Positions 9,706 through 44,919 of a stretch of 49,501 nt of DNA are shown here, one piece after another. How positions within the stretch are numbered: the first letter of the stretch is position 1; every line of letters begins with the position of its first letter. This DNA is from Bacteroidia bacterium (GTDB taxonomy: Bacteria; Bacteroidota; Bacteroidia; B-17B0; Aurantibacillaceae), in assembly GCA_020846025.1 (NCBI GenBank), contig JADLER010000189.1:1-49501 (forward strand), written 5' to 3'. Position numbers and translations under genes: made by a program. The notes below the pieces were generated by a model. That model made no database searches, had not been told where the DNA came from, and worked only from the letters and a program-made list of their open reading frames with translations.

Positions 9706-11754
9706 ATGAATATTAAAAAACAAATTGTGGTGTTTTGTGTAAGCTTTATAGCTTTGCTTAATTCTAATTTGTTATTGGCGCAACCCTCAACGGTAACATC
9801 TTCAGATAGTTTAATTCAAAGAGTTCGTTTGTCTTATCAAGAAAATCCTAATTTAGCATATCAGTATGCTACACAGGCAGTAGTTCAGGCTAAAAAAGAG
9901 AACTCAGACCTTAATTTAGGTATTGCTTATGAGATGTTAGGGCTTTCATTAGATTACCTTAGTAAATTGGATTCAGCTTTATATTATTATGATAAAGCGG
10001 CGCCTTTGTTAAGTGCTCAGTCGGATAAGATACATTTGGGGCAATTGTATATCACCAAAGCCAATACTTTATATCTATTAAATAGAAATCAAGAAGCCAT
10101 ATTATATTATCAAAAAGCTTATGATCTATTAAAAATATCAGGGAATATAAAAAAACAAGCAGGTGCATTAATGGGCATGGCTAATATCTATTCTATTATG
10201 AAATCGTATGAGTTGTCGCTTAAATATTATGCACAATCTCTAGATTTAGTTAAACAAATTAATGATGAACAGTTTACTTCCTATATACTGACTAATATAT
10301 CGGAGGTTTACACTTCGATGCGAGATTATAAGAAGGCCATAGAATATGAAAGTCAATCTTTAAAGATTAAAGAAAAGATTCATAAAGATTATGATTTAGT
10401 TTATACCTATATTAATCTAGCGGAATTATTGATGATGGAAAATTTGAATTATAAAGACTCTGCATTGATGTATCTGAATAAGGCAGTAGCTTTGTCTAAT
10501 AAAATAGATAATCAAGAGTTTTTGTGTAGTTCATATCAAGGTATGGTAAAATTCTATGACGCTATCAATGATAATCAAAAAGCAATTGAATACGCATACT
10601 TAGCATTAGAATTGTCGAAGAGGATAAAAAATATTAGAAGTGAATTAAATATATCTGGACTTCTTTCTAATATTTTTGAGGAGCAGAAAAATTTTGAAAA
10701 AGCAAATGAATATATACACAGATATATTATACTAAACGACAGCATAAATAATATGGAAGTTCGAAAATCATTTAATGAACTACAAACCAAGTATGAAACA
10801 GATAAAAAGGAAAAAGAAATTATGTTACTTAACGAACGTGATAAAAAACGCACGTATTTTATTTACTCCTCCATTATTGTGGTTGCATTATTAGGGCTAC
10901 TTTCTTTTACATTATATAACCGTTTTAGGTTAAAGAAAAAAGTAGCAGGAGAGTTGGAAAAGAGAAATAAAGAAATTGAAATTCAGAAAAATTTAGTAGA
11001 TGAAAAGCAAACCGAGATTTTAGATTCGATTAATTACGCTAAACGTATTCAGTACGCCTTATTAGCACAGGAAGAAGTTTTAAAAAGAAATCTTAAAAAC
11101 TATTTTATATTATTTAAACCTAAAGATATTGTTAGTGGCGATTTTTATTGGGCTACGGAACATCAAGATAAATTTTACTTAGCGGTGTGTGATAGCACAG
11201 GACATGGCGTGCCAGGAGCATTTATGAGTTTGCTAAACATTGGTTTTTTAAGCGAGGCGGTTAAAGAAAAACAAATCACGAAACCTCACGAAATATTAAA
11301 CTATGTAAGGCAACGCCTAATTGAAAGTATTGCTACAGAAGGGCAACAAGATGGCATGGATGCTATTTTAATTTGTTTAGACAAAAAGAACTCTAAAATA
11401 ACTTATGCCGCCGCTAATAATCAACCCGTATTAATTCAACAATCATCACAATTAGTTGAATTATCAAAAGACAAATTGCCCGTAGGAAAAAGCCCACATG
11501 AACAGTCGTTTAACTTATATGAGATTGATGCTCAAAAAGGAGATAAATTATATTTATATACAGATGGTTTTGCTGATCAATTTGGAGGACCTAAGAAAAA
11601 GAAATTCAAATACAAACAGCTTCACGATTTGTTACTGAATAACTCTAATTTGCCTTTAGCAAAACAATACCAGAATCTGGAATCTTCGTTTAATTCTTGG
11701 CGTGGTGATTTAGAACAGATAGATGATGTATTAATTTTAGGCTTCGAAATTTAA
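9706..11754 (+). CDS. TPR-repeat sensor with C-terminal SpoIIE-type PP2C phosphatase
   Basis: 682 residues, a paralogue of the proteins at 724 and 17955. It has a signal peptide (about 1-26), TPR-like helical repeats (about 50-350), a membrane segment near 384-405, a coiled coil (about 408-445) and a SpoIIE phosphatase domain. Metal-site motifs are KPKDIVSGDFYW near 471, CDSTGHGVPGAFMS near 494, YTDGFADQFGG near 618 and QIDDVLILG at the end. The sequence just before the phosphatase, DSINYAKRIQYALL, is the conserved linker in this group. The target is unknown. The IPP isomerase gene follows at a distance of 34 bases with its own promoter box. Confidence 0.93.
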   Translation: MNIKKQIVVFCVSFIALLNSNLLLAQPSTVTSSDSLIQRVRLSYQENPNLAYQYATQAVVQAKKENSDLNLGIAYEMLGLSLDYLSKLDSALYYYDKAAPLLSAQSDKIHLGQLYITKANTLYLLNRNQEAILYYQKAYDLLKISGNIKKQAGALMGMANIYSIMKSYELSLKYYAQSLDLVKQINDEQFTSYILTNISEVYTSMRDYKKAIEYESQSLKIKEKIHKDYDLVYTYINLAELLMMENLNYKDSALMYLNKAVALSNKIDNQEFLCSSYQGMVKFYDAINDNQKAIEYAYLALELSKRIKNIRSELNISGLLSNIFEEQKNFEKANEYIHRYIILNDSINNMEVRKSFNELQTKYETDKKEKEIMLLNERDKKRTYFIYSSIIVVALLGLLSFTLYNRFRLKKKVAGELEKRNKEIEIQKNLVDEKQTEILDSINYAKRIQYALLAQEEVLKRNLKNYFILFKPKDIVSGDFYWATEHQDKFYLAVCDSTGHGVPGAFMSLLNIGFLSEAVKEKQITKPHEILNYVRQRLIESIATEGQQDGMDAILICLDKKNSKITYAAANNQPVLIQQSSQLVELSKDKLPVGKSPHEQSFNLYEIDAQKGDKLYLYTDGFADQFGGPKKKKFKYKQLHDLLLNNSNLPLAKQYQNLESSFNSWRGDLEQIDDVLILGFEI

Positions 11755-17954: not shown

Positions 17955-19967
17955 TTGAGAAAGTTTATATGTATAATATGCTGTGTGGTATCAAGTCAGC
18001 TTGCTTTCACTCAAAATATTGATTCTTTGAAAAAAGAATTAGCAGTATGCAATAATGATACTAATAAAGTAAATATATTATTACAACTCATTGAAATTAT
18101 AACAGATGATAACGTATGGCCAAAATATAATGACCAAATGCTTCATGTGTCGGAAAAGTTAATAGAAAGTGACAATGCATTAATACGTAGAAAAGGGCAA
18201 AAAGGACTGGCTGATGCCTATAACAACATTGGATTTATTTATAATAACCAAGGTGATATTCCAAATGCGTTAGAGAACTTTAGGAAAAGTTTAAGTATGC
18301 AAGAAAAATTAGGAGATAAAGTGGGGGTGGCGGAATCCATGAGTAATATAGGGGTTATTTATTATTTTCAGAACGAGTTATCTAAGGCTTTAGATTATTA
18401 TTTAAAGAGCTTAAAAATCCGTGAGTCAATAGGAGATAAGGATGGTATTGCAAACTCTTTAAATAACATTGGGAATTTATTTTATACCCAAAATAATATG
18501 ACAAGGGCTTTATATTATAGCACAAGAAGTTTGAAAATACAAGAAGAGATTGGAGATTATGAGGGAATGGCTTATTCTTTAAATAATTTGGGAGGTATTT
18601 ATTTTTATAAAGGAGAAATTGCCAAAGCTTTAGAATATTATTTTAAAAGTAAACAAATGAGCCAAAAAATTGGCGACTCACAAGGCTTAGCAGCTTCCAT
18701 GCATAATATTGCTTCAGTGTATATAAAATCCGCACTTAGAAATCAAGGAGATAGAAAAAAACAATTATTACTAGCCCAAGCTTATACAGACAGTTCTTTA
18801 ACCCTCTCAAGACAACTGGGATTTCCGGCAAATATTAGAAATGCAGAACGTTTATTATCGCGAATAGATTCTGCTAATGGAAGATTTGCCGATGCTTGGG
18901 AACATTATAAACAATATATTATTTATAAGGATAGTATAAATAATGAAGCTAATCATCAAGCAAGTATCAAAAGTCACTTAAAATATGTGTTTGAAAAAAA
19001 AGAAGCCATCTTAAAGGAACAGATAGATAAAGAGCGAATAATAGTTGAAGAAAAAAGCAAAATGCAACAACTAATTATTTTTTGTGTGGCTGCTGGTTTA
19101 GCACTAGTATTAGTTTTTTCTTTATTTATTTATAGAAGTTTACTAAAGAATCGGAAAGCAAATTTAATTATCTCAAATCAAAAAAAATTAGTAGAAGATA
19201 AAAACTTAATCATTGAAATTAAACAAAAGGAAATAATAGACTCAATCAATTATGCCAAGCGCATTCAATATTCGTTACTAGCTCATCACGATTACTTGAA
19301 GCAACATTTGCCAAACCATTTTATTTATTTTAATCCTAAAGATATTGTAAGTGGCGATTTTTACTGGGCAACCAAAAAAGATGATAAATTTTATTTAGCT
19401 GTATGCGATAGTACTGGACATGGTGTTCCTGGCGCATTTATGAGTTTATTAAACATAGGTTATTTAAGCGAAGCTATTAATGAAAAGGACATAGAAAAAC
19501 CTAATGAGATTTTTAATTATGTGCGTACACGCTTGATAGAAAATATTAGTAAAGATGGGCAAAAAGATGGCTTTGATGGTATTTTAATTTGTTTTGATAA
19601 AGGTTCTAATCAATTAACCTATGCTGCTGCAAATAATAAACCGGTTTTGATTCATGATAATCTGGTTAAAGAACTTGAGGCAGATAGAATGCCCGTTGGG
19701 ATAGGTGAGAAAAAAGATAATTTCAATCTATATACAGTAAATGTGTCTTCTGGTGATTTGTTATATTTATATACTGATGGTTATGCCGATCAATTTGGTG
19801 GGCCAAAAGGTAAGAAGTTTAAATATAAGTCTTTAAATGAGTTGATAAACACTAATCATCATTTTACATTAACTCAACAGCAAGAGATTTTAAGTTCAAA
19901 TTTCGAGTTTTGGAAAGGAGAATTAGAACAAGTAGATGATGTGTGTGTAATAGGGATTAAGTTTTGA
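17955..19967 (+). CDS. TPR-repeat sensor with C-terminal SpoIIE-type PP2C phosphatase
   Basis: 670 residues, the third member of this paralogous group. It starts at TTG (17955), which gives the signal peptide MRKFICIICCVVSSQLAFTQ. There are four to five TPR units of 40 residues (about 85-290), a membrane segment near 374-394, a coiled coil, then the phosphatase. Motifs are NPKDIVSGDFYW near 460, CDSTGHGVPGAFMS near 483, YTDGYADQFGG near 608 and QVDDVCVIG at the end. The usual KPKD is NPKD here. No regulator gene is adjacent. Confidence 0.92.
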   Translation: MRKFICIICCVVSSQLAFTQNIDSLKKELAVCNNDTNKVNILLQLIEIITDDNVWPKYNDQMLHVSEKLIESDNALIRRKGQKGLADAYNNIGFIYNNQGDIPNALENFRKSLSMQEKLGDKVGVAESMSNIGVIYYFQNELSKALDYYLKSLKIRESIGDKDGIANSLNNIGNLFYTQNNMTRALYYSTRSLKIQEEIGDYEGMAYSLNNLGGIYFYKGEIAKALEYYFKSKQMSQKIGDSQGLAASMHNIASVYIKSALRNQGDRKKQLLLAQAYTDSSLTLSRQLGFPANIRNAERLLSRIDSANGRFADAWEHYKQYIIYKDSINNEANHQASIKSHLKYVFEKKEAILKEQIDKERIIVEEKSKMQQLIIFCVAAGLALVLVFSLFIYRSLLKNRKANLIISNQKKLVEDKNLIIEIKQKEIIDSINYAKRIQYSLLAHHDYLKQHLPNHFIYFNPKDIVSGDFYWATKKDDKFYLAVCDSTGHGVPGAFMSLLNIGYLSEAINEKDIEKPNEIFNYVRTRLIENISKDGQKDGFDGILICFDKGSNQLTYAAANNKPVLIHDNLVKELEADRMPVGIGEKKDNFNLYTVNVSSGDLLYLYTDGYADQFGGPKGKKFKYKSLNELINTNHHFTLTQQQEILSSNFEFWKGELEQVDDVCVIGIKF

Positions 19968-32862: not shown

Positions 32863-32880
32863 TTTAGGTTATTACCTAAA
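32863..32880. terminator. small hairpin at the end of two convergent genes
   Basis: TTTAGGT and ACCTAAA form a perfect 7-bp stem with loop TATT, overlapping the stop region of the minus-strand adhesin gene. No strong T-run follows, so terminator activity is uncertain. Confidence 0.3.
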
Positions 32881-35800
32881 CAAATTCACTGAGCCATGTT
32901 TTTCTATTTCTTTTCCGTCAAAGCCAGTGGCTTTTACAAAGAAGAAGTAGGTGCCCTCAGGAGCAGAAGCACCATTTGGTACTTTTCCATCCCACGAGGC
33001 TTTCGCGCCGCTGAACTCGTATAATTTCTCACCCCAACGGTTAAAGATTTGTAAAGCTATTTCTTTTACCCCTGTAGATTTAATAGTAAATATATCATTT
33101 ACATTATCCCCATTTGGTGTAAATACATTTGGTATTTCAAGTGTTAAACCATCTTCTACCACTATTTCTACCGTAGCTGTTGCTACACAAGTTCCAGACG
33201 CTACCACTAAACTCACAGTATAAGTTCCTGTGGTAAATGTTTGACTTGGATTTTGATCAGTAGATGTTTGACCATTTCCAAAATCCCATGTAAAACTTGT
33301 GCCATTACCACCACCCGTAAAGTTAACATCTAGTGGCGATGTACCCGTTGTAGGATTAGCAGTTAAACTAGCCGTAGCCGATGATTGACTAACTGTTACT
33401 ACTGCCGAACTCGAACAACCCGTTACATTATCAGTTACAGTTAAAGTGTAAGTTCCTGTTTCGCCAACTGTAGGATTTAAAGTATTGCTACCTGTTAAAA
33501 TACTAGTAGCAGATGGTCCAGCCCAAGTATATGACACATTACTAGAAGTGGTAACACCGTTTAATACTACTGTGCTACTACCACAAGCAATGTTAGCCGA
33601 TGTACCAGCATCTACACCTTGTGGTGTAACCGTACTACCAGTTACTACATATTGTACGGTGGTTGAACAGCCATTTACTGCATCTACTACTTCTAAAGTA
33701 TAAGTACCCGCCGATGTTACATCAATAGATGGTGTATTAAGATTACCAGGTAACCAATTAATATTGGTAGCGTTAGCACCGCTAGTACTAGAGTTTAAAG
33801 TAACTGTACCATTACTAGCCCCACAACCAATTACAGTGTTACTTGAGGTAACTGTAATAGTGCCAGTAGGAGCTGTATTATCTACAACCACTGTAAAGGT
33901 ATTTGCTGTATTAGTAGAAGAACTAACACAACCTGTAAGCGTATTGGTTACAGCTAAGGTATAAACACCTGCTGCGGTAAATGTGGCACTCGCCTGATTT
34001 GGAGAACTTGCTAAACCTGTTCCAGACCAAGTATAAGTTACATTAGCACTTGGTGATACCGTAGGAGTTACCGTTACATTCAAATTCGTACAAGTAATGG
34101 TACCACTATTTCCAGAAGTAGAAAGCGTGGCTGATGGTAATGCTGTTGCATCTACCACGGTTACAACATTATTGGCAATGCTGGTAGCACAACCCGATAC
34201 TGTATTTGTTACCACTGCACTATACGTTCCAGGAGCGGTAAACTGTGGTGTAGCAGTAGTTTCAGTGCCAGGCACAATACCAGCCGTAGGCGACCAACTA
34301 TAACTTACAGGGCTCGCTGTGGTGGTAATAGCTACCGTAGGGCTTGGATTTGTACAAGTAATAGAAGCTGTATTAGATGATAAGGTTACTACTGGAATAC
34401 CTGCATCAGCTACTACCTCTACAGTAGCTTGTAAAGCCGATGAAGTGCTACATCCAGTAATTGTATTGGTAACAGATACTGTATAAATACCTGGATTACT
34501 TACCATAACCGGGTTACCAGTTAAAGTACCACTGCTTGGTGTTGTCCAAGTATAAATGGTATTAGGGTCATCTGAACTACTACCTGATAAGGTTACGGTA
34601 GGTACTGCGCAAGTAGCGGTTAAGGTAGGAGCTGTACCTAAGGTAAAGCTAGGCGTTGTGGTATTAGAGATAACGGTTACAGTGCTTGTACCTGTACAAC
34701 CATTGATATTGTCAGTAACTGTCACCACATAACTACCGCCTGCATCCACACTTGGGCTACTGCTTGTGCCATTGGTAATAGTACCAGGGCCAGACCATGA
34801 ATACGCATAATTAGTACCTGTTGGTGTCGCATTAAGGGTAACAAGCGTATTAGTACAAGTAATGGTAGATGATGAAGTGGCATTAGCCACTGGGGCAATG
34901 GTATTACTTGGCACATTGGCTGTGTAAATAGCATCACAACCTGAAGAAGTATTTGTAATGGTTACACTATACACGCCTGGCATGTTAGCTGTTGTTACTG
35001 AATTAGTAGGGCTACCTAAAGTACCTGGCCCACTCCAAGCGAAAGATAAAGGATCGGAACCAACCGGTGTCACCCCAATGGTAACAATAGAATTAGTACA
35101 AGTAATAGAATTAGTAACAGGGTTTACTGTTGCTTGCGGAACATTCGTAGAAGAACTTACGGTTACCACTGAAGTATGAGTACAGCCAGAGGCTGGTATG
35201 GTAGCAACTAAAGTATAGGTACCAGGAGCACAAGCTGCTGTTGTAAAACTACTAGATGAGCCACAAACACCGCCTAACCAGTTAGCTGTAGCACCTGCTG
35301 GACTTGCTGAGCCTGTTAAGGTAACAGAAGGGCTTCCGCAGGTAAGGGTTTGAGACGGACCAGCATTCGCTGTTGGTGTGGTGGTGTTTTGATTAATAGT
35401 GGTATTAGCAGTAGCGGTACAACCATTAGCGGCTGTTACTACAACAACGTAAGAACCTGGAGTATTAGCGGTAGTAGTCGCAGTGTTAGTAGCTCCTGTA
35501 ATACCAGGACCAGACCATGCATAAGTACCACCACCAGTAGCGGTTAGATTAATGCTATTAACAGTACAGGTTAATGAACCACTATTGCTAGCGCCTGCTG
35601 TTGGAGCTGTTGTATTTTGTGTAACAGACGTATTAGCAGTAGCAGTACAACCATTGGCAGCTGTAACTAAAACAGAATAAGTGCCACCCGCATTAACGGT
35701 TGGGTTTGCAGAAGTGTTGCCTGTGATAGCACCGCCAGTCCAAGCATAAGTTCCACCACCACTAGCTGTTAAGGTAACAGTAGTATTGGTACAATTTAAT

Positions 35801-38049
35801 GAACCAGAATTTACAGCACCTGCTGTTGGAGCGGTAGTATTTTGTGTAACAGATGTATTAGCAGTAGCAGTACAACCATTAGCAGCTGTAACAGTTACTA
35901 CATAAGTACCTGGTAAATTCACGGAAGGAGTAGCAGTAGAACCACCACTTACAATACCTGGCCCACTCCAAGCATAGGTTCCTCCACCAGTACCAGTAAT
36001 GCCAATGGTACGTGTAGTACAGGTTAAAGTAGAACTATTGCTAGCGCCCGCTGTTGGTGCAGTAGTGTTTTGTGTAACAGATGTATTAGCAGTTGCAGTA
36101 CAGCCATTGGCAGCTGTAACAGTTACTACATAAGTACCTGGTAAATTTACGGAAGGAGTAGCAGTAGAACCACCACTCACAATACCTGGTCCACTCCAAG
36201 CATAAGCACCTCCACCAGTACCAGTAATGCCAATGGTACGTGTTGTACAGGTTAAAGTAGAACTATTGCTAGCACCCGCTGTTGGTGCGGTAGTGTTTTG
36301 AGAAACCGCTGTTGTTGTAGTAGTAGAGCAACCATTACTGCCAGTTACAATTACAGTATATGTGCCTCCTTGATTGATAACAGGATTTGCTGTTAAACTA
36401 CCACTTACAATACCTGGTCCACTCCAAGTGTAAGTTCCGCCTCCTGTGGCTGTGAGTGTTGCAGTGGTATTTGTACAATTTAAACTAGCAGAATTTACTG
36501 TTACTGTTGGACCAGCTCCTGAGGTAACGTAAACAGTAGATTTAAGCATAGCTAAACATCCCGAAGTGCCTCCAACATAACAGCTATACGTGGTGGTTAC
36601 AGTAGGATTTACTACAACAGAGTGTGTGGTATTAGAACCAACAAAAGTACCTGGATTAGATGCAGTCCACGAATAGGATAAAGCACCAGAGTTTACACTT
36701 AATGTCGTTGAACTTCCTGCACAAATAGTAGCAGAATTAGCAGATATTGTATAAGCAGAAGCACTGGCACAAATGGCATTACTGCTCATACCTGCCGTTG
36801 TGTTTGTTCCTGCATAATTTGTTGCTGTAGATAAATTAACATTAGTTACTGTACCATTAAGTACTGTTAAGACAGGAGATGAATTTACTTTTGTAATACT
36901 GGTGCCACATGTTGCAGATGAACCAGCAAAACCACTTGTGTCCGTAACTACTAAACCGAAATCCCAGTTCCCTCCTACTGTAGGTCCCATCCATCCGCTA
37001 GCCAAATAAGTACAACCAGAGATAGTGATACCATGAAAACCATCATCATTAACACTTGGTCCACCACCGTTTCCATATCTTTTTGTCCAAATAACAGTTC
37101 CTGTATTGCCATTTAGTTTTGCCATCATTGCATAATTATTTTCTGTTTCACCAGCCACAACTACAGCACCGTATTGGTCGAACGCACAATTAATACCCCA
37201 TGAATTTCCCATAGTAGTTGGATTTCGGAGATACCAACTGTATTGACCATTAATTTGGCGTGTCCATAACACATTACCTGAAAGGTCTATCTTTACTACT
37301 ATAAGATTACCTGGATTTCCCGAACTTGACTGAGCGGTTGCGCCACATAAAACAATTCCACTCGCAGATATATCCATTCCCGTAAAGTGAGGCCTTAATG
37401 ATGCACCCACATAAGTCTTACACCAATTTACATTCCCATTAGCAGCATTTACACTTAAAACATAAGATTCGGCTGTACCGCCAACATCAAAACTTCCTGC
37501 CATATAATAATTGGAACCTGATTTATGAATCACATAAGCATCTGCATTATTTCCATTAATAGTATATTCTTTATACCAGATTAGATTCCCACTAGCATCT
37601 GTTTTAATAATACAAGGCTTGTTATTAAACCCAGCAGCTACTACATCTGTACCATCATTTATAATATATCTTAAGGTCCCACTTCCATAATTTTTAGAAA
37701 ACTGTTTTACCATTGTGGCATCATACTTTACAATAAGTTTGTTTTGAGAACCAATTGCTCCATTATGTCCAGCAACAAAAATATTATCTGATGCATCAAT
37801 GGAAGCAGAGAATAGTTCACCTGAATTAGCAACAACTCTGTTAGTAGAGTAGGCACCTGTTGTATTTGCTACCACAAAACAAGGTTTATCGTCTAATAAA
37901 CCTGCCATGACTAATTCGCCTTTTGCATTTACTACAAGGTGATTAGACCACGAATAATTACCAGATTGTCCATAATTGAAATATCCAATATTTTGAGCAA
38001 AGCTACCTATTGTAATAAATGAAAAAATAATAAGTATGATTTTTTTCAT
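32872..38049 (-). CDS. giant adhesin-like T9SS protein with Ig/PKD repeats and type B (gliding-motility) sorting domain
   Basis: 1725 residues. It has a signal peptide MKKIILIIFSFITIGSFAQ, then a beta-propeller-like region to about residue 390 (repeats with FVAGHNG, VVAAGFNNKP, IVLCGATAQ). About 15 Ig/PKD-like units of 75-85 residues follow (pattern T-C-T/N, Y-W-S/T-G-P, G-x-Y-x-V-x-V-T-x-x-x-x-G-C). There is one canonical PKD unit near 1570 (FTWDFGNGQTSTDQNPSQTF) and a C-terminal CHU_C domain (IPNVFTPNGDNVNDIFTIKS...IFNRWGEKLYE). The tail marks it as type IX secretion cargo for the cell surface. It is rich in Thr and Ser with regular paired Cys. Function beyond adhesion is inference. Confidence 0.92.
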   Translation of the reverse strand: MKKIILIIFSFITIGSFAQNIGYFNYGQSGNYSWSNHLVVNAKGELVMAGLLDDKPCFVVANTTGAYSTNRVVANSGELFSASIDASDNIFVAGHNGAIGSQNKLIVKYDATMVKQFSKNYGSGTLRYIINDGTDVVAAGFNNKPCIIKTDASGNLIWYKEYTINGNNADAYVIHKSGSNYYMAGSFDVGGTAESYVLSVNAANGNVNWCKTYVGASLRPHFTGMDISASGIVLCGATAQSSSGNPGNLIVVKIDLSGNVLWTRQINGQYSWYLRNPTTMGNSWGINCAFDQYGAVVVAGETENNYAMMAKLNGNTGTVIWTKRYGNGGGPSVNDDGFHGITISGCTYLASGWMGPTVGGNWDFGLVVTDTSGFAGSSATCGTSITKVNSSPVLTVLNGTVTNVNLSTATNYAGTNTTAGMSSNAICASASAYTISANSATICAGSSTTLSVNSGALSYSWTASNPGTFVGSNTTHSVVVNPTVTTTYSCYVGGTSGCLAMLKSTVYVTSGAGPTVTVNSASLNCTNTTATLTATGGGTYTWSGPGIVSGSLTANPVINQGGTYTVIVTGSNGCSTTTTTAVSQNTTAPTAGASNSSTLTCTTRTIGITGTGGGAYAWSGPGIVSGGSTATPSVNLPGTYVVTVTAANGCTATANTSVTQNTTAPTAGASNSSTLTCTTRTIGITGTGGGTYAWSGPGIVSGGSTATPSVNLPGTYVVTVTAANGCTATANTSVTQNTTAPTAGAVNSGSLNCTNTTVTLTASGGGTYAWTGGAITGNTSANPTVNAGGTYSVLVTAANGCTATANTSVTQNTTAPTAGASNSGSLTCTVNSINLTATGGGTYAWSGPGITGATNTATTTANTPGSYVVVVTAANGCTATANTTINQNTTTPTANAGPSQTLTCGSPSVTLTGSASPAGATANWLGGVCGSSSSFTTAACAPGTYTLVATIPASGCTHTSVVTVSSSTNVPQATVNPVTNSITCTNSIVTIGVTPVGSDPLSFAWSGPGTLGSPTNSVTTANMPGVYSVTITNTSSGCDAIYTANVPSNTIAPVANATSSSTITCTNTLVTLNATPTGTNYAYSWSGPGTITNGTSSSPSVDAGGSYVVTVTDNINGCTGTSTVTVISNTTTPSFTLGTAPTLTATCAVPTVTLSGSSSDDPNTIYTWTTPSSGTLTGNPVMVSNPGIYTVSVTNTITGCSTSSALQATVEVVADAGIPVVTLSSNTASITCTNPSPTVAITTTASPVSYSWSPTAGIVPGTETTATPQFTAPGTYSAVVTNTVSGCATSIANNVVTVVDATALPSATLSTSGNSGTITCTNLNVTVTPTVSPSANVTYTWSGTGLASSPNQASATFTAAGVYTLAVTNTLTGCVSSSTNTANTFTVVVDNTAPTGTITVTSSNTVIGCGASNGTVTLNSSTSGANATNINWLPGNLNTPSIDVTSAGTYTLEVVDAVNGCSTTVQYVVTGSTVTPQGVDAGTSANIACGSSTVVLNGVTTSSNVSYTWAGPSATSILTGSNTLNPTVGETGTYTLTVTDNVTGCSSSAVVTVSQSSATASLTANPTTGTSPLDVNFTGGGNGTSFTWDFGNGQTSTDQNPSQTFTTGTYTVSLVVASGTCVATATVEIVVEDGLTLEIPNVFTPNGDNVNDIFTIKSTGVKEIALQIFNRWGEKLYEFSGAKASWDGKVPNGASAPEGTYFFFVKATGFDGKEIEKHGSVNLFR
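35845..36300 (-). repeat. two tandem 228-bp coding repeats within the adhesin
   Basis: Copies 35845-36072 and 36073-36300 encode 76-residue Ig-like units. By eye there are about 12 base differences, but only one residue differs (Ala/Thr in GGG(A/T)YAW). A related unit with a 225-bp period continues at 35620-35844. Confidence 0.85.
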
Positions 38050-38189: not shown

Positions 38190-40193
38190 TTAAAAGATAA
38201 AATTAAGATTAGCGGTAAAGTTTCTTCCAAATCTTGGAACCTGACCAATATCTAAATGCTCACGGTATCTGATGTCGAAAATATTCTCACAAGCTAATGA
38301 GAATTGAATGACACTAGATTTTATTCTGAAATTTCTAGCAGCTCTTAGGTTAAATAAGTGGTATTCAGGAGTTAAAACATCTCCATAATCGCTGTTAACC
38401 CTATTTTGTTTCATCGCATAATCGTGTTCAATCTGAAATTGAAATAAATTTAATTTATAACGTAAAGCATGTTGTAATTTTAAAGGTGGAATTAAAGGCA
38501 ATGATTTTCCATCAAATGTTTCTGTATAAATATATTTAATACTATTTATATAGGTAAGGTTATCAATAATGTGATACTTTAAATTAAACTCTCCCCCCAT
38601 TGATGTGGCGTATTTTATGTTCTTATAGGATTTTAAACCTTTTGCACCAATTGTCATAGCACTCATGCCATTAAGTTGGTATGAGTAGATGTAATTACTT
38701 ATTTGGTGATAAAAGAAATTAAAAGAGTAATCCAATTTTTTTAAACTATGTTTTATAAGTAATTCAGATTGATAGGATTGCTCTGGTTTTAATAAAATAT
38801 TACCTATATAGTCGTATTGATCTTGTCGATTAAATAAATAATATCCATATCGTTCATTACTTGTGGCAAGACGCTCTCCATAGCCAACGGATAATTGAAC
38901 CAATAATCTATCTAAGAATGTTTTTGAATAAGAAATATTTCCGCTCTTTAAAACATCTTCTAATTCATTTGTAATATTTGTGTTAAATACTTTCCACTGT
39001 TTATAACCTATACCTCTTACGGCAGATTGTAAATAATAATCAGCTCGAGCATTAAAATTTAATTGTTGTTTGTGTTTTAAATCAAGTTTATATTTAATAG
39101 CTAAGCCAGCATTATTAAGATTGTTTTCGGGCAATGTTTGCATATACATAATGGGTTCACCAATAGGATACATTGTCATGTCAGCGCGTGCATATACATT
39201 ATGAAAATCGAGCCTAACTTTTAATTTATCACTAGCAAATAACTCATTATACATTCCAGTAGTTTTTGTCCATCCTGGCATATCCATGTGCATAGGAACA
39301 TTCGGGCGATGAGTGTCATCCATGAAATGTGTTATTTGGTTGTAATAAAATTTTAATTCATTTCTAGTGAAGTAACTGTTGTTAAATGTAATTTGATGTG
39401 TTAAAGATGTTATTTGTGCTGTTGCATTTCCAACATCCATAGGTAAGGCTGGGTAGCCAATATTTTTTCCCCAATCTCCTAAGTAGTCTATTTTAAGTAA
39501 CTGAGTTTTTGCAATTTTAAATAACACATTGGCTCCAATATTGTATTTTTCAAATCCTGAGTATGGAATAATTAAATATCCACCTGCTTTATAATCATTT
39601 GCTTTTCTATAAGTACCATTTACTCGATAGGCTATTTTTTCGGTGGAATGTTGTAGTGCAGCAGATGCATAGTAAGCATTGTTTACACTTAAATATGTTT
39701 GAGAAATTTGACCGCTTAGATTAGAATGGCAATTTAGTGTGGGTTCTCGTAGTTGCATATTTATTTGCCCACCAATATTGCTGCCATTCATTGTTCCTGA
39801 AGCGCCATGTGCTACTTGTATAGCAGATAGATTGGAGGGTTCAACATAAATAGAAACTGGATCCATTTTGTCTGTACAAGCGCCATAAATCTTCATGCCA
39901 TCAATCGTTAAATTAGTTTGACCTGAATTGTAATTTCGCAAAGTAGGCTCTAACCCATAAGCGCCTCGTTTAATTAAATTAACGCCTTGCATTCTAGATA
40001 AAATATCTTCGGTAGTTGCTAATTTGTTGTTTTTATAAAAATCAAACGATTGATCTTTTTCTTCACTTAAGTCGCATACTGAAATTTCATCAAGTGTAAT
40101 GGTCTTTAAGGACGAATCTTTTGGGGTGTTTTGCCCCAAAAGATTCAAATTTATGAATAGAATAAATATGACTAATATTTGTTTTTGTAACAT
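38190..40193 (-). CDS. TonB-dependent receptor, OprC/NosA-like (putative copper uptake)
   Basis: 667 residues with a signal peptide (about 1-20), no carboxypeptidase-like N-terminal domain, a plug (about 50-150) and a barrel ending in NFTANLNFIF. In the plug, GACTDKMDPVSIYVEPS has the CxxxM arrangement (C106, M110) that binds copper in Pseudomonas OprC. An extracellular-loop-like stretch HFMDDTHRPNVPMHMDMPGW (H289 to W308) is rich in Met and His, suggesting a second ligand set. These features and the neighbours point to copper. A different metal cannot be ruled out. Its ATG overlaps the stop of the upstream lipoprotein (TAATG). Confidence 0.85.
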   Translation of the reverse strand: MLQKQILVIFILFINLNLLGQNTPKDSSLKTITLDEISVCDLSEEKDQSFDFYKNNKLATTEDILSRMQGVNLIKRGAYGLEPTLRNYNSGQTNLTIDGMKIYGACTDKMDPVSIYVEPSNLSAIQVAHGASGTMNGSNIGGQINMQLREPTLNCHSNLSGQISQTYLSVNNAYYASAALQHSTEKIAYRVNGTYRKANDYKAGGYLIIPYSGFEKYNIGANVLFKIAKTQLLKIDYLGDWGKNIGYPALPMDVGNATAQITSLTHQITFNNSYFTRNELKFYYNQITHFMDDTHRPNVPMHMDMPGWTKTTGMYNELFASDKLKVRLDFHNVYARADMTMYPIGEPIMYMQTLPENNLNNAGLAIKYKLDLKHKQQLNFNARADYYLQSAVRGIGYKQWKVFNTNITNELEDVLKSGNISYSKTFLDRLLVQLSVGYGERLATSNERYGYYLFNRQDQYDYIGNILLKPEQSYQSELLIKHSLKKLDYSFNFFYHQISNYIYSYQLNGMSAMTIGAKGLKSYKNIKYATSMGGEFNLKYHIIDNLTYINSIKYIYTETFDGKSLPLIPPLKLQHALRYKLNLFQFQIEHDYAMKQNRVNSDYGDVLTPEYHLFNLRAARNFRIKSSVIQFSLACENIFDIRYREHLDIGQVPRFGRNFTANLNFIF

Positions 40194-41041
40194 TATTGTA
40201 AAGTCATTTCAAAATATTGATCATCACTTATTAATGTTCCATTTTTAAATAATTTTAAGTGTACATACCACAATCCAGACATGGTATAATTTACTTTTCC
40301 TAAATAGTGACCCTTGCCTACATGTGTTGGGTTGATATTATTTGGCGAGCCATGTCCCATGCTCGGCATTTCTGGTTCAATTTCAACTGTATATTGGTCA
40401 ATAAATGGATAAGTCATTCCGTTTACACGTTGATGTAAGGTTATTTCAAAATTATTGGTTCCAACAGATGGGTTGGTTGGTTGTACCAGGCTAATAAACA
40501 CTTTTTTATTACTATCTAATGCTAAAACTACACTTTTAAATTTACTAGGAGAACTTGCTGACACATCTACGCCAAGAGAGCCTAGTCCTGATTTGCCATT
40601 TTTGTGGTTATGGAAATTAATATTTAATGACCACTGAGAAGCAGTTCCAGCCATTGAGAATATAACAGCGCTTCTAAAGTAGCCATTTGTACTAATTGTA
40701 TCACTTGTGTTTTCTACTGGTGAACCATGAGACATACTTCCCATATTCATTAATGGAGAGATATTACAGTGGCCCATATTAAGAGCACTTCCATCTGTTG
40801 AATCAGTAAAAGCTACATAGATAAGATTATATCCAGTTTCAAAAGCTTTATCTGTATATATTGAAGCTTTTGCATTTGCCCCAACAATATAAGTTTCTCC
40901 AATTTTTATTAGGTTGTTGGGCGTGCTTGGTGTTGTAACTTCTTCTTCTGGTTCAATAGATTTGTTTTTTTTACAGGCACTTGAAATTCCAATAATGAAG
41001 AGTAAAAATGTTAAGAGTTTAATTTTGTTAAGCGTTTTCAT
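40193..41041 (-). CDS. lipoprotein with two YtkA-like domains, Met/His rich (paralogue A)
   Basis: 282 residues. The signal peptide ends in a lipobox (IGISSAC, C23). There are two similar beta-sandwich halves (about 45-160 and 165-280). Each carries a Met/His cluster at the same place: MNMGSMSHGSP (98-108) and PEMPSMGHGSP (224-233 region). The second half also has GKGHYLGKVNYTMSGLWYVHLK, the pattern of YtkA-like domains. Such Met/His clusters suit Cu(I)/Cu(II) binding, so this may hand metal on from the receptor. It is about 50% similar by eye to the protein at 41681 and coupled to the receptor gene by a 1-base overlap. Confidence 0.8.
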   Translation of the reverse strand: MKTLNKIKLLTFLLFIIGISSACKKNKSIEPEEEVTTPSTPNNLIKIGETYIVGANAKASIYTDKAFETGYNLIYVAFTDSTDGSALNMGHCNISPLMNMGSMSHGSPVENTSDTISTNGYFRSAVIFSMAGTASQWSLNINFHNHKNGKSGLGSLGVDVSASSPSKFKSVVLALDSNKKVFISLVQPTNPSVGTNNFEITLHQRVNGMTYPFIDQYTVEIEPEMPSMGHGSPNNINPTHVGKGHYLGKVNYTMSGLWYVHLKLFKNGTLISDDQYFEMTLQ

Positions 41042-41203
41042 AAGTTCTATTTTTTTTAATGTTAAATATTGATTTAATGATTGAAATCAATAACCTTAAT
41101 TTGTAACTACACACAAATCCCTACACACTCAAGAAGGGGTGTGAGAATTGAATTGGCTAATTAATTTCAGGATAAACGTAGGATATGGCTAATACAGCCA
41201 AAC

Positions 41204-41572
41204 TTAACAGGTAGGTGGGTGAAAAATAGACTGAGTAGCTTTAGGTAAATTACTTGGAATGAATTTACCATTTAGCGAAGCGTTTGGTGTTTCTATGTTT
41301 AATAATTTTAATTCATTGTTCTCTGAGATTAAAAGTATTTCATTTATCTCTTTAAATGTGTTTTTTGTTGTGCCTTCCTTTTCTTCTTGTTCATGCAATT
41401 GTTTTTTTAGATGACACTTACCTTTACATTTTAATTTTGGTTTAGACTTATTCTCACAATACTTTTTGGTAATTAATTCCTTATTTATAATGTAATTTGA
41501 GAATAAATACAATTTACTGAAAGTAGAACTTAGTAAACCAACAACAAGAATTATAGCAACAATTATTCTCAT
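41204..41572 (-). CDS. small exported Cys-rich protein of a Bacteroidota copper-locus family
   Basis: 122 residues with an N-terminal hydrophobic segment (2-17). The core YCENKSKPKLKCKGKCHLKK (C39, C49, C53, H54) and the C-terminal FHPPTC (H118, C122) leave four Cys and two His on the exported part. I recognise the pattern C-x9-C-x3-CH from small uncharacterised Bacteroidota proteins encoded near metal-transport genes, but I know no biochemical role. The Cys/His pattern suggests metal binding or thiol redox. It lies between the two lipoprotein paralogues and has a possible promoter upstream. Confidence 0.7.
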   Translation of the reverse strand: MRIIVAIILVVGLLSSTFSKLYLFSNYIINKELITKKYCENKSKPKLKCKGKCHLKKQLHEQEEKEGTTKNTFKEINEILLISENNELKLLNIETPNASLNGKFIPSNLPKATQSIFHPPTC

Positions 41573-41589
41573 AAGAGGAAATTCAAATA

Positions 41590-41597
41590 CAAAGGTA
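41590..41597 (-). promoter_or_regulatory. -7 box TACCTTTG upstream of the small Cys-rich gene
   Basis: An exact TAnnTTTG match on the minus strand, 17 bases upstream of the ATG at 41572. A perfect 10-base palindrome GATTATAATC lies further upstream at 41621-41630. It could provide a second transcript for the lower half of the operon. Confidence 0.45.
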
Positions 41598-41680
41598 AAG
41601 CCTTATCTTTAATTTTAACTGATTATAATCATAATTAAAAAAGATATAGATTATATATTTTTAATTGAAGGCCAATTTGA

Positions 41681-42526
41681 TTAATGTACATCCATATCAA
41701 AAATCTGGTCGGTACTGATTAATGTGCCATTTTTAAATAATCTCACATGAACAATCCATGCGCCTGTCATTGTGAAATTTACCCTTCCAAAATAATGTCC
41801 CTTCTCAGTGAATATGGGATTTACATTAAAGGGAGAGCCATGTTCCATACTGGCCATTTCAGGTTCAATTTCTACTGAGTACGAATTAATGGTTGTATAT
41901 ATTGAGTCGGTAATTTTTTGGTGTAATACAATTTCAAAATTATTTTTTCCAACTTTTGGTAGTTCGGGCTGCACTAATGACATGTAAACTTGTTTATTGC
42001 TATCTAATGCTAATACAAGATCCTTAAACCGGCTAGGAGTACTTGCATTTACTTGAATGTTTAACGTTCCATTACCTGTTGTGTTATTGGTATGATTATG
42101 GTAATTTATTAATAATTGCCATTGAGATGCAGTACCTGTCATTGGAAATACAACGGCTCTTTTATAATAATTATCAGTAACCACACTGTCTGTTGAATTT
42201 TCAATAGGGGCGTAGTGTATTGTTCCGCCCATATTCATTTTTGCAAAAATTTTGCAGTGTCCATAGTTTAAGGCGTTTCCACTTGCCGAATCAATAAACT
42301 GAATATACAAAGAGTTATATCCAGTTTCTAAATTTCTTGGAGCAAATATTAACACTTTGGCATTTGCTCCAATTATATACGTTTCTCCTATCTTTAACAA
42401 ATTACTAGTATTATTTATGCTTGATGTTTCTTCTTCTTCTGGCTCATTATCATGTTGCTTTTTACAAAACGTAAAAACACTTAAGCATAAAATTAATACT
42501 AGTGATAAAGTTTTTATTTTCATCAT
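41681..42526 (-). CDS. lipoprotein with two YtkA-like domains (paralogue B)
   Basis: 281 residues with a lipobox (SVFTFC, C21). It is the same two-domain design as 40193-41041 and shares long identical segments (LLKIGETYI, GANAK, GTASQW, LALDSNK, VEIEPEM, LFKNGTLIS). Its Met/His clusters are partly degraded: AKMNMGGTIHYAP (95-106) and PEMASMEHGSP (222-232). The paralogues may therefore differ in metal affinity. The start is 10 bases after the Rrf2 stop, so it is co-transcribed with the regulator. Confidence 0.8.
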   Translation of the reverse strand: MMKIKTLSLVLILCLSVFTFCKKQHDNEPEEEETSSINNTSNLLKIGETYIIGANAKVLIFAPRNLETGYNSLYIQFIDSASGNALNYGHCKIFAKMNMGGTIHYAPIENSTDSVVTDNYYKRAVVFPMTGTASQWQLLINYHNHTNNTTGNGTLNIQVNASTPSRFKDLVLALDSNKQVYMSLVQPELPKVGKNNFEIVLHQKITDSIYTTINSYSVEIEPEMASMEHGSPFNVNPIFTEKGHYFGRVNFTMTGAWIVHVRLFKNGTLISTDQIFDMDVH

Positions 42527-42536
42527 AATTTTGAAG

Positions 42537-42974
42537 TTAGATTTTTAAACAACTTAACCCTATATCTACACTTCTCGACATATCAGAAAGGGTTGTTTTA
42601 TGAACCATCTTTAGTAAATCTTTTTTAATAAATTTAAATTGATTGTGAACGGGACAGGGGTGGTCTTCAGAACATTTTTTTAATCCTAAAACGCAAGTTT
42701 TTTCAATCATATTCCCATCAATGGCAGTAATAACATCTATTAATTTAATTTTTTTAGAGTCTTTCATATTAATACCAAAGCCTCCTAGCTTACCTTTACT
42801 CGAGTTAACTATACCAGCTCTAACTAATTTTTGTAAAATTTTAGCCGTAAATGCTTTTGGCGAATCAATTTCATTTGAAATATCTGTTAAGTTACACTGT
42901 TCTTTATTTAATGATTTTTGTGCAATATAAACTGTTGCTTTTATGCCATATTCGCAAGCCTTTGAAAATATCAT
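42537..42974 (-). CDS. Rrf2-family transcriptional regulator with Cys/His cluster
   Basis: 145 residues. The winged helix N-terminus (MIFSKACEYGIKATVYIAQ, then the recognition-helix region SPKAFTAKILQKLVRAGIV and the wing SSKGKLGGF) is that of Rrf2/IscR/NsrR proteins. A cluster C94-x6-C101-x5-C107 with H110 in CPVH matches the position where IscR and NsrR bind an Fe-S cluster, so redox, NO or metal sensing is plausible. It is the first gene of the minus-strand metal operon and sits across the intergenic region from mbnP, so it probably regulates both arms. Confidence 0.88.
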   Translation of the reverse strand: MIFSKACEYGIKATVYIAQKSLNKEQCNLTDISNEIDSPKAFTAKILQKLVRAGIVNSSKGKLGGFGINMKDSKKIKLIDVITAIDGNMIEKTCVLGLKKCSEDHPCPVHNQFKFIKKDLLKMVHKTTLSDMSRSVDIGLSCLKI

Positions 42975-42997
42975 GAGATTTTAAGTTATTCGTAAAA

Positions 42998-43026
42998 TTT
43001 AATTCGTTTTAAATGTACGAATTAAA
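42998..43026. promoter_or_regulatory. inverted repeat TTTAATTCG / CGAATTAAA in the rrf2-mbnP intergenic region
   Basis: Perfect 9-bp arms separated by 11 bases that contain a possible minus-strand -7 box, TACATTTA (complement of 43010-43017). A dyad centred on the promoter of the rrf2 operon fits an operator for autoregulation. Confidence 0.5.
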
Positions 43027-43028
43027 TC

Positions 43029-43042
43029 GGATATTTTTATCC
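43029..43042. promoter_or_regulatory. candidate Rrf2 operator GGATATTTTTATCC
   Basis: A perfect 5-bp dyad GGATA-N4-TATCC between the two divergent promoters. A further half-site-like TATTATCC follows at 43056-43063, directly upstream of the mbnP -7 box. Assignment to the Rrf2 protein is inference from location. Confidence 0.5.
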
Positions 43043-43075
43043 TAATTTAAATAAATATTATCCTATTTTTTTGCA

Positions 43076-43083
43076 TATATTTG
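43076..43083 (+). promoter_or_regulatory. -7 box TATATTTG for the mbnP-mbnH operon
   Basis: An exact TAnnTTTG match on the plus strand, 80 bases before the mbnP ATG. The upstream region that would hold -33 is occupied by the TATTATCC half-site. Confidence 0.5.
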
Positions 43084-43163
43084 GTAAATCTTAATGTTAA
43101 AAATTGAATTTTAGTGAATTATTCAGTAACTTTATTTTATTGATTTTAAAATTTCTTAATATA

Positions 43164-43931
43164 ATGAAAGCTTTTAATTTTTATGCCCGATTATTCATTA
43201 TAATGTTCATTACTGTAATAATGAGTGCTTGTAAAAAAGACACGAAGGTTTCAGACAAAGTTGAAGAGCCTGAAAGTACAACCACCTCAGTTACTTTTAG
43301 TTTTATACCTAAAAATGGTACTCAGACCTTACTTTGGGATTCTATTTCAAATACCAATGCGGCAGGCAATCAATTTAGTGTAAATACTATCAATCTGTAT
43401 ATTTCAAACGTGTGGTTGAAACATGCTAATGGGAGTATATTTAAATCAAATCAGGTGTTTTATATCGACCCAAAGATTGTTTCAAAATCTTCTTTCCAAT
43501 TAAGTGATGTTCCGAAAGGAGATTATGTAGAAGTCCAATTTCTGTTGGGATTAGATACAATTAAGAATGTTGACAACGGATTAGAAACAACTATGGATAA
43601 TTTAAATATGGCTTGGCCAACAATGATGGGTGGTGGTTATCATTTTATAAAAATGGAAGGACATTATTTAGATGGCGCTAGTGTGTCTAAAGGTTATGCG
43701 GTTCATTTAGGAAAAAATGAAAACTTGGTACAAGTTACGATTCTTAAGAATTTAAGCTTTCCGAATGCAAGTCATCAGTGCTCTATTTCATTTGATGTGA
43801 ATGAAGCATTTACAAGTCCTTATTTATATGACCTTAATGCTGAAGCAAATTATACGATGTCTGATTCCATCGCAATGTCTCATATTAAAACAAACTTACA
43901 AGATGCGTTTAATATTATTCAAAATAACTAG
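43164..43931 (+). CDS. mbnP: MbnP-family copper-associated lipoprotein
   Basis: 255 residues from the ATG at 43164, which gives a lipoprotein signal (IMSACKK, C23); the frame extends upstream only to a TTG. The MbnP family pattern is present: NQFSVNTINLYISNVWLKHANGS (69-91), MAWPTMMGGGYHFIKMEG (149-166) and YAVHLGKNEN. Trp residues are W58, W84 and W151. His residues H160, H167, H181 and H204 could serve as ligands. In methanotrophs MbnP binds copper and one Trp is oxidised by the di-heme partner MbnH. The partner gene follows here with a 29-base overlap. Confidence 0.85.
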   Translation: MKAFNFYARLFIIMFITVIMSACKKDTKVSDKVEEPESTTTSVTFSFIPKNGTQTLLWDSISNTNAAGNQFSVNTINLYISNVWLKHANGSIFKSNQVFYIDPKIVSKSSFQLSDVPKGDYVEVQFLLGLDTIKNVDNGLETTMDNLNMAWPTMMGGGYHFIKMEGHYLDGASVSKGYAVHLGKNENLVQVTILKNLSFPNASHQCSISFDVNEAFTSPYLYDLNAEANYTMSDSIAMSHIKTNLQDAFNIIQNN

Positions 43932-44919
43932 TGTAATATTCTTAGCTCTTCTATTATTTAACTGTACTAAAAATAGTGCGGAGGAGATAGAGCCTAACAC
44001 CGCTACACCGCTTACACCTTATACAGTGAATGTTCCTGATTATTTTCCTAAAATGGAAATACCAGTAGATAATCCCTTGACTGTAGAAGGAATAAGTTTG
44101 GGAAGACAATTGTATTACGATCCTATTTTATCAAATAATGGAAACTCTTGTTCTACTTGTCATAATGCACCTGAGTCCTTTTCTAGTTATTCGGCAAATT
44201 CCTTACCGCATATAAATTTAGCATGGAATTCTACTTTTTTATGGGATGGACATATAAATGGTACCTTAGAAGACATTATGAAATTTGAGGTAGAAGATTT
44301 TTTTCAAACAGATATATCTAAATTAAACAACTCTTCATATTATAAAAGTGAATTTAAAAAAGTTTTTAATGTTGATGTCATAACTCATAAAAATGTTGAA
44401 TATGCTTTGGCCCAATTTTTTAGAGTAATGGTTTCTTCTAATTCTTTGTACGATAAATTCTATCAGCATACTGCAAACTTTACTCCTTCACAAATGAATG
44501 GTTTTATCACGTTTATTACTGAGAAAGGGGATTGTTTTCATTGTCATTCAGTAGGGCTTTTTACTGACAACAAATTTCATAATATAGGCATTGACTCAGT
44601 ATTTACAGGTGTAAACGCTGGACGTTATAATTATACAAATAACCCAAGCGATCTAGGATTATTTAAAACACCCACTTTAAGAAACATTGAATTAACTCCG
44701 CCTTATATGCACGATGGTAGATTTCAAACTCTTGAAGAGGTAGTTGATTTTTATAATTCTGGTGTTAAACACAGTTCTACTCTTGATCCTATTATGACAA
44801 AAGGCACTAAAATGTTTGGCTTAGGTTTAAGCGCTACTGATAAGCAGGATTTAGTTGCTTTCCTTAAAACATTAACTGATACTACATTTACAAAAAATCC
44901 AATGCTACAACAGCCTTAA
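43903..44919 (+). CDS. mbnH: MbnH-like di-heme cytochrome c peroxidase family lipoprotein
   Basis: 338 residues from the ATG at 43903. This start gives a lipobox (LLLFNC, C21); the frame upstream of it only shadows mbnP. Two c-type heme sites are present: CSTCH (83-87) and CFHCH (211-215). Conserved CcP/MauG elements are LGRQLYYDPILSNNG, LAWNSTFLWDG, TPTLRNIELTPPYMHDGRF and TLEEVVDFYNSG. Family members use peroxide or high-valent heme chemistry; MbnH oxidises a Trp of MbnP. The overlap with mbnP, rather than with a detoxification gene, supports MbnH over a simple cytochrome c peroxidase. Confidence 0.88.
   Translation: MRLILFKITSVIFLALLLFNCTKNSAEEIEPNTATPLTPYTVNVPDYFPKMEIPVDNPLTVEGISLGRQLYYDPILSNNGNSCSTCHNAPESFSSYSANSLPHINLAWNSTFLWDGHINGTLEDIMKFEVEDFFQTDISKLNNSSYYKSEFKKVFNVDVITHKNVEYALAQFFRVMVSSNSLYDKFYQHTANFTPSQMNGFITFITEKGDCFHCHSVGLFTDNKFHNIGIDSVFTGVNAGRYNYTNNPSDLGLFKTPTLRNIELTPPYMHDGRFQTLEEVVDFYNSGVKHSSTLDPIMTKGTKMFGLGLSATDKQDLVAFLKTLTDTTFTKNPMLQQP

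Follow-up and report, generated by a model that had tools for sequence, protein, structure and literature searches.

The window analysed here comprises positions 1 to 49,501 of contig JADLER010000189.1 (assembly GCA_020846025.1) from a Bacteroidia bacterium of the family Aurantibacillaceae. Its positions 38,190 to 44,919 hold seven adjacent genes in two divergent arms: on the minus strand those for a TonB-dependent receptor, two lipoproteins (A and B), a small cysteine-rich protein (small Cys protein) and an Rrf2-family regulator, and on the plus strand an MbnP–MbnH pair. This layout, strands and junctions included, had been described in an initial annotation made from the sequence alone, and is borne out by gene calls, coordinates and domain matches (Pfam and NCBIfam profiles). 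That annotation gave the small Cys gene no role, yet it is this gene that links both arms phylum-wide, and we consider it rather probable that the whole is a copper-acquisition cluster in which the small Cys gene acts as a leader controlling the lipoprotein A–receptor unit. The seven genes are as follows.

38190..40193, minus strand: TonB-dependent copper receptor, OprC/NosA-like (PF00593, PF07715), with copper-site residues C106, M110, H289 and M291
40193..41041, minus strand: lipoprotein A, CrdA-like, with a lipobox Cys, two beta-sandwich domains and a C-terminal YtkA domain carrying PxMxxMxHGSPNN (PF13115 over cut-off)
41204..41572, minus strand: small Cys protein, 122 residues, putative copper-sensing leader peptide with an N-terminal membrane helix, a Cys cluster and C-terminal FHPP
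41681..42526, minus strand: lipoprotein B (PF13115 YtkA over cut-off), a 55% identical paralogue of lipoprotein A
42537..42974, minus strand: Rrf2-family regulator (PF02082, E 3e-23), with C-x6-C-x5-C as possible iron–sulfur (Fe-S) ligands
43164..43931, plus strand: MbnP-family lipoprotein (PF20243 over cut-off), with W151 and H181 kept and the usual H207 now Ser
43903..44919, plus strand: MbnH-family di-haem peroxidase with two CxxCH motifs (PF03150 over cut-off)

Along the minus strand, the Rrf2 gene is followed after 10 bases by lipoprotein B, after a further 108 by the small Cys gene and after another 162 by lipoprotein A, the stop codon of which shares one base with the receptor ATG (TAATG). 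On the plus strand, MbnP and MbnH overlap by 29 bases, MbnH starting at 43903 (MRLILFK). A congener (G014) keeps all seven genes in identical order at 85–96% identity, so the arrangement is not due to chance; the complete set was found in this genus only. With a −7 promoter motif ahead of the small Cys gene and gaps of 108 and 162 bases on its two sides, the minus arm is probably not a single operon.

The case for copper begins with the receptor. Against TIGR01778 (TonB-copper) it scores 143.6 bits (E 9e-42), short of the curated cut-off of 472.45, and its copper-site residues are a stronger argument than this family score: in the alignment C106 and M110 correspond to Cys143 and Met147 of OprC, and H289 and M291 to His323 and Met325, completing the CxxxM-HxM copper site, and all four are invariant in 36/36 receptor homologues. 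Lipoprotein A is predicted to fold into two beta-sandwich domains (mean predicted local distance difference test score 83), and its structure matches are mostly generic immunoglobulin-like, the compact single-domain one being CrdA (9ll2; template modelling score 0.74 by target length). Homologues of lipoprotein A are present in 36/295 Bacteroidia genomes, and in 28/30 lipoprotein A loci a TonB receptor stands directly behind the lipoprotein gene. The copper substrate and the acquisition role proposed initially thus gain support from the CxxxM-HxM site and the CrdA-like domain, and the locus very probably imports copper. As its intact site implies, the OprC-like receptor would bring ionic copper through the outer membrane, and lipoproteins A and B would bind envelope copper and pass it on.

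The same proteins could instead confer copper tolerance, with the lipoproteins and MbnP serving as sponges that sequester the metal; CrdA is indeed a copper-resistance determinant, and YtkA and Met/His-rich lipoproteins could buffer copper. We regard tolerance as quite unlikely: in nearly all loci the lipoprotein gene is directly followed by that of a TonB receptor, which is energised and has a copper site of the import type; none of the seven genes encodes an efflux pump, an oxidase or an ATPase; and OprC and CrtA set the precedent of importers repressed by copper (PMC8610252, PMC12914433). The uptake reading is further supported in G014, where the locus adjoins what appears, read by eye, to be a caa3 oxidase/alternative complex III operon; the window itself contains no oxidase genes, and five COX1-type proteins are encoded elsewhere in the genome.

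The evidence for a leader comes from the small Cys gene and its immediate surroundings, which hold the following features.

41590..41597, minus strand: Bacteroidota −7 promoter-like motif TACCTTTG, 17 bases ahead of the small Cys gene start
41414..41458, minus strand: codons of the invariant Cys cluster C39-x9-C49-x-G-x-C53 (homologue alignment)
41213..41224, minus strand: FHPP codons (residues 117–120, two residues from the stop), a putative ribosome arrest motif (homologue alignment)
41042..41203, minus strand: 162-base gap from leader to lipoprotein A, without a promoter motif; the RNA fold of 41042–41215 is stabler than shuffles (z −2.3)

The small Cys protein matches no family in Pfam or NCBIfam. 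Across 166 distinct Bacteroidota homologues, C-x9-C-x-G-x-C and Pro-Pro are the sole invariant features (166/166), the Pro-Pro, usually part of [IV]-F-[H/R/Q]-P-P, lying 1–8 residues ahead of the stop; among other open reading frames of the same loci, taken as a control, Pro-Pro occurs within the last ten residues in 4/582. From the last Cys to Pro-Pro the distance is 66.1 ± 1.9 residues (range 62–72), spanned by a linker that keeps its length and is nearly unconserved in sequence (14% identity among homologues against 6.7% expected by composition). A Tyr 15 residues ahead of the first Pro, conserved in 67%, is reminiscent of the tunnel-contacting aromatic residues of SecM. AlphaFold predicts a single membrane helix (residues 2–38), with low confidence for the remainder. 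Judging from the divergence between the window and G014 (0.03 at nonsynonymous and 0.35 at synonymous sites), the gene is translated and under purifying selection. Homologues occur in 162/295 Bacteroidia genomes and in 102/247 genomes phylum-wide, other Bacteroidota classes included, with Flavobacterium, Chitinophaga, Hymenobacter and Fluviicola among the named hosts.

A membrane helix, a Cys cluster, a place among copper genes and selection on a translated product would equally suit an ordinary membrane-anchored periplasmic copper chaperone, active when finished, in which Pro-Pro is part of the fold or a partner-binding tail. Such a chaperone is doubtful, however, in a protein without a predicted folded domain, in which 66 linker residues preserve length and hardly any sequence, conservation is sharp precisely at the final codons, and the gene occupies the leading position, separated from the next by a long gap.

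Promoter placement sets the gene apart in the same way. Ahead of the small Cys gene the −7 motif TAnnTTTG occurs at 4.9 and 4.2 per kb, a three- to sixfold enrichment over the 0.8–1.3 of shuffled sequence. The gap that follows the gene has a median length of 104 bases; it is depleted of the motif (0.21, compared with 0.85) and contains a full promoter in 0/122. Motif and gene order together indicate that the small Cys gene heads transcription units with a promoter upstream only. The gene directly behind is most often MbnP (50), followed by an outer-membrane-like CDxCGC/CCAG family (47), lipoprotein A (25) and TonB receptors (23). In 136/160 the next five genes include one of copper type (MbnP, MbnH, lipoprotein A, TonB receptor or PepSY); conversely, 25/30 lipoprotein A loci have the small Cys gene directly upstream. 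Some receptors of small Cys loci are followed by PepSY_TM, as are those of the crtA operons controlled by the leader peptide CruR (PMC12914433).

A small, Cys-rich product encoded beside a TonB receptor might also be the precursor of a chalkophore or other ribosomally synthesized and post-translationally modified peptide (RiPP) taken up by that receptor, all the more as copper RiPPs are made by MNIO enzymes and MNIO RiPPs are known from Bacteroidota (PMC12636315). This is very improbable here: PF05114 (MNIO, MbnB-type) was not found in the genome, which is 92% complete, no modifying enzyme is common to the loci, and the small Cys family also heads loci that have no receptor. That no MNIO was found in this genome agrees with the initial observation that no methanobactin biosynthesis gene is visible at the locus, and makes a methanobactin-type route unlikely.

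The small Cys protein is best read as a cis-acting, cotranslational copper sensor, and we infer the following course of events. With the small Cys gene as leader of the lipoprotein A–receptor transcription unit, the ribosome would pause at the C-terminal F-[H/R/Q]-P-P while making the small Cys protein, its chain still in the Sec channel. According to PMC9973294, about 30 residues occupy the ribosome tunnel and about 17 are needed to cross the membrane; because some 66 residues exceed this sum, the Cys cluster would be set at or just past the outer face of the inner membrane, sampling periplasmic copper. Where copper is scarce, the arrest would persist and the downstream genes would be expressed, and where copper binds, the arrest would end and termination or an mRNA fold would shut them off. 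This direction, that of CruR (on at scarce copper), seems the likelier one for import genes.

The divergent region between the arms may provide a second layer of control and has two features of its own.

43029..43042, strand not assigned: inverted repeat GGATATTTTTATCC, a candidate operator in the Rrf2/MbnP divergent region, largely kept in G014 and in a sister genus (G263)
43076..43083, plus strand: −7 promoter-like motif TATATTTG ahead of MbnP (motif search)

The regulator matches PF02082 and has three Cys residues spaced much like those of Fe-S members. Since the Rrf2–MbnP interval of each of the three related genomes contains a GGAYATTTTTATCC-like element, Rrf2 may control MbnP–MbnH and itself, and this would fit a two-input scheme in which Rrf2 acts on one arm and the leader on the other. 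An Fe-S-type Rrf2 protein could be the main switch for both arms, leaving the small Cys gene a minor passenger, and its divergence from MbnP around the conserved element in G000, G014 and G263 would favour this; it is nonetheless unlikely, as no copy of the GGAYATTTTTATCC element was seen ahead of the small Cys gene, and Rrf2 was found next to the receptor module in no family other than the window's, whereas the small Cys gene is phylum-wide. In the sister genus, Rrf2 is likewise divergent from MbnP–MbnH and the small Cys–lipoprotein–receptor genes lie downstream, with nrdD–nrdG in place of lipoprotein B, which stands behind Rrf2 in the window's genus only. The Rrf2 gene there (L127:5769-9210) is followed by nrdD and nrdG, encoding an anaerobic ribonucleotide reductase, and these neighbours suggest that the sister-genus Rrf2 protein responds to oxygen or redox state.

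The plus arm combines a PF20243 protein, an adjoining MauG-like di-haem enzyme and a conserved Trp, the marks of an MbnP/MbnH pair. Both proteins score under the curated cut-offs of the corresponding NCBIfam models (MbnP 24.8 bits against TIGR04052; MbnH 191.1 bits against TIGR04039, cut-off 363), and the closest solved structure to MbnH is 6e1c, a di-heme enzyme. The MbnP Trp is conserved in 96/97 homologues and kept in the window, and, as in the family generally, MbnH would oxidise it to form a copper site. With the commonly conserved His207 replaced by Ser, the metal site of the window-clade MbnP may differ from that of typical MbnP; the proteins at window 43164–43931 and L127:4757-5518 lack both a His at 207 and the usual DMFSVxHIHN tail. 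The suggestion of a methanobactin-independent pathway in Bacteroidota stands in that no MNIO was found, but the pathway is not new: MbnP/MbnH pairs outside methanobactin operons have been known since 2013 (PMC3621798), and MbnP is present in 218/295 Bacteroidia genomes.

A linkage of the two arms across Bacteroidota, as first envisaged, holds in part. MbnP lies within about 9 kb in 4/28 lipoprotein–receptor loci (G000, G014, G263 and G135), a Flavobacteriaceae metagenome-assembled genome (MAG; L201) provides a fifth linked case, and in the other 24/28 MbnP was not found within the fetched stretch, which was short for some. Three genomes of the window's family, from two genera, have the arms near each other. 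In two others (G135 and L201) they stand in tandem, in the order leader–lipoprotein–receptor–leader–MbnP–MbnH, so that a separate small Cys gene precedes each module. The conserved modules are therefore small Cys protein–lipoprotein–receptor and MbnP–MbnH, usually apart and not parts of one seven-gene unit, while Rrf2 and lipoprotein B have been added locally; the linkage is real yet sporadic, and the element common to both modules is the small Cys gene.

Several observations weigh against a copper-responsive leader as the key to this cluster. The arrest motif demonstrated in vitro is the RAPP of CruR (PMC12992588), which differs from the F[HRQ]PP of the small Cys family; no leader is detectable in 5/30 lipoprotein A loci; and in the window, MbnP–MbnH has no leader of its own, its promoter facing Rrf2, and belongs to the clade with Ser for His207. 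Terminator-like hairpins are no commoner behind the small Cys gene (22/109) than in other codirectional gaps (53/250), so the RNA step lacks distinctive support, and the attenuator hairpin was dropped as a diagnostic because its enrichment proved unspecific after this control.

Other observations concern the surroundings of these loci. The CDxCGC/CCAG family (for example L055:2402-3433, L063:1465-2496, L125:1456-2358 and relatives), uncharacterised proteins of about 300–390 residues with N-terminal CDxCGC or CCAG, is found behind the small Cys gene in 89/160 loci, often adjoining MbnP; it matches no Pfam family above cut-off and is probably located in the outer membrane. In one genus, the small Cys gene is preceded, at a distance of 15–24 bases, by a gene for a ScdA/RIC-type di-iron repair protein (L015:1056-1799, L053:256-1008). 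Three MAGs named Actinomyces viscosus, Candidatus Kuenenia stuttgartiensis and Candidatus Planktophila lacus (L166, L173 and L205) have Bacteroidota-type small Cys loci and are probably mislabelled or contaminated bins. A search with nos_propeller_2 for a denitrification link via NosA/NsrR gave no match in the genome, nor anywhere else searched. Elsewhere in the window lie three TPR-SpoIIE phosphatase-type proteins within 20 kb (724–3153, 9706–11754 and 17955–19967) and a secreted protein of 1725 residues (32872–38049) with many repeat units, a PKD domain and a type IX secretion (CHU_C) tail.

A wider proposal, which we judge evenly balanced, is that Bacteroidota own copper-sensing arrest peptides without detectable DUF2946 kinship, which combine F[H/R/Q]PP with a 66-residue ruler, sense copper where the Sec channel opens into the periplasm and control many MbnPH, OprC-like and PepSY-linked uptake genes. 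If true, this would supply a copper-sensing principle for a phylum that abounds in soils, waters and guts, tie OprC-like import and MbnPH, copper modules thought separate, to one type of switch, offer ribosome work a new candidate arrest sequence and provide a directly testable account of control over Bacteroidota copper-uptake genes.

Among known systems, the window receptor shares the complete CxxxM-HxM site with OprC/NosA receptors (PMC8610252), but is remote from them in sequence, under the TIGR01778 cut-off, and coupled to a YtkA-type lipoprotein gene. Helicobacter pylori CrdA has the fold of one lipoprotein A domain, whereas lipoprotein A is two-domain, lipid-anchored and paired with a receptor. 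The MbnP/MbnH, MopE/SACCP and CorA/CorB pairs likewise place a lipoprotein-type partner with a conserved Trp beside a di-haem enzyme; the window differs in having no methanobactin or MNIO genes and in the loss of one common His in its clade.

The closest parallels to the small Cys family are the leaders CruR and CutF, whose anatomy it shares: a CxxC or CxxxC pair, Pro-Pro in the last 15 residues, a short chain and a membrane or export segment, with Cys cluster and Pro-Pro in 166/166. Membership in DUF2946 (PF11162) was rejected, this family not being among the 25 listed for 42 members scanned at E<=1. The PF11162 model matches in 2/149 Bacteroidia genomes, and one Bacteroidia genome (G076, L237:1399-1794) encodes a genuine DUF2946 protein with CTYC and C-terminal RGPP; CruR-type leaders thus seem to exist, rarely, in Bacteroidota. 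The survey of CutF-like proteins in PMC9973294 comprises 5,334 proteins under 150 residues with Pro-Pro near the C terminus and, as it gives 19–40% of them as Bacteroidota, probably already includes the small Cys family, without a function; its main text, as far as accessible, makes no mention of a Bacteroidota motif, a ruler or MbnP/YtkA-receptor neighbours. Copper-linked arrest peptides were reported absent from Bacteroidota by a later survey restricted to RAPP/RGPP (PMC12992588); if the leader reading is right, this would be because the motif of the small Cys family differs.

In Bordetella pertussis, bfrG/crtA is preceded by the leader CruR (DUF2946). The model put forward for CruR is an arrest at RAPP that copper lifts, whereupon transcription of the receptor gene ends (PMC9426467). 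CruR shares with the small Cys protein a small leader open reading frame in first position, an export segment, a Cys pair, a C-terminal Pro-Pro at a constant distance from Cys and a gap of 162 bp, alike in the window and in B. pertussis. Proteobacterial CruR genes also precede like gene types, namely OprC-type and PepSY_TM-linked TonB copper receptors and MbnPH (PMC9426467). The small Cys family differs in its Bacteroidota hosts, in lacking a DUF2946 match, in having three Cys (C-x9-C-x-G-x-C) and in its motif and ruler, since in place of RAPP or RGPP at 45 residues, not found in this family, it has F[HRQ]PP at 66 ± 2. CutF of Rhodobacter capsulatus senses periplasmic copper during export (PMC9973294) and shares CxxxC, a short chain, Pro-Pro no more than 15 residues from the C terminus, a signal or membrane segment and a position upstream of copper genes; it differs in promoting cutO when copper is present and in its spacing of 45 residues.

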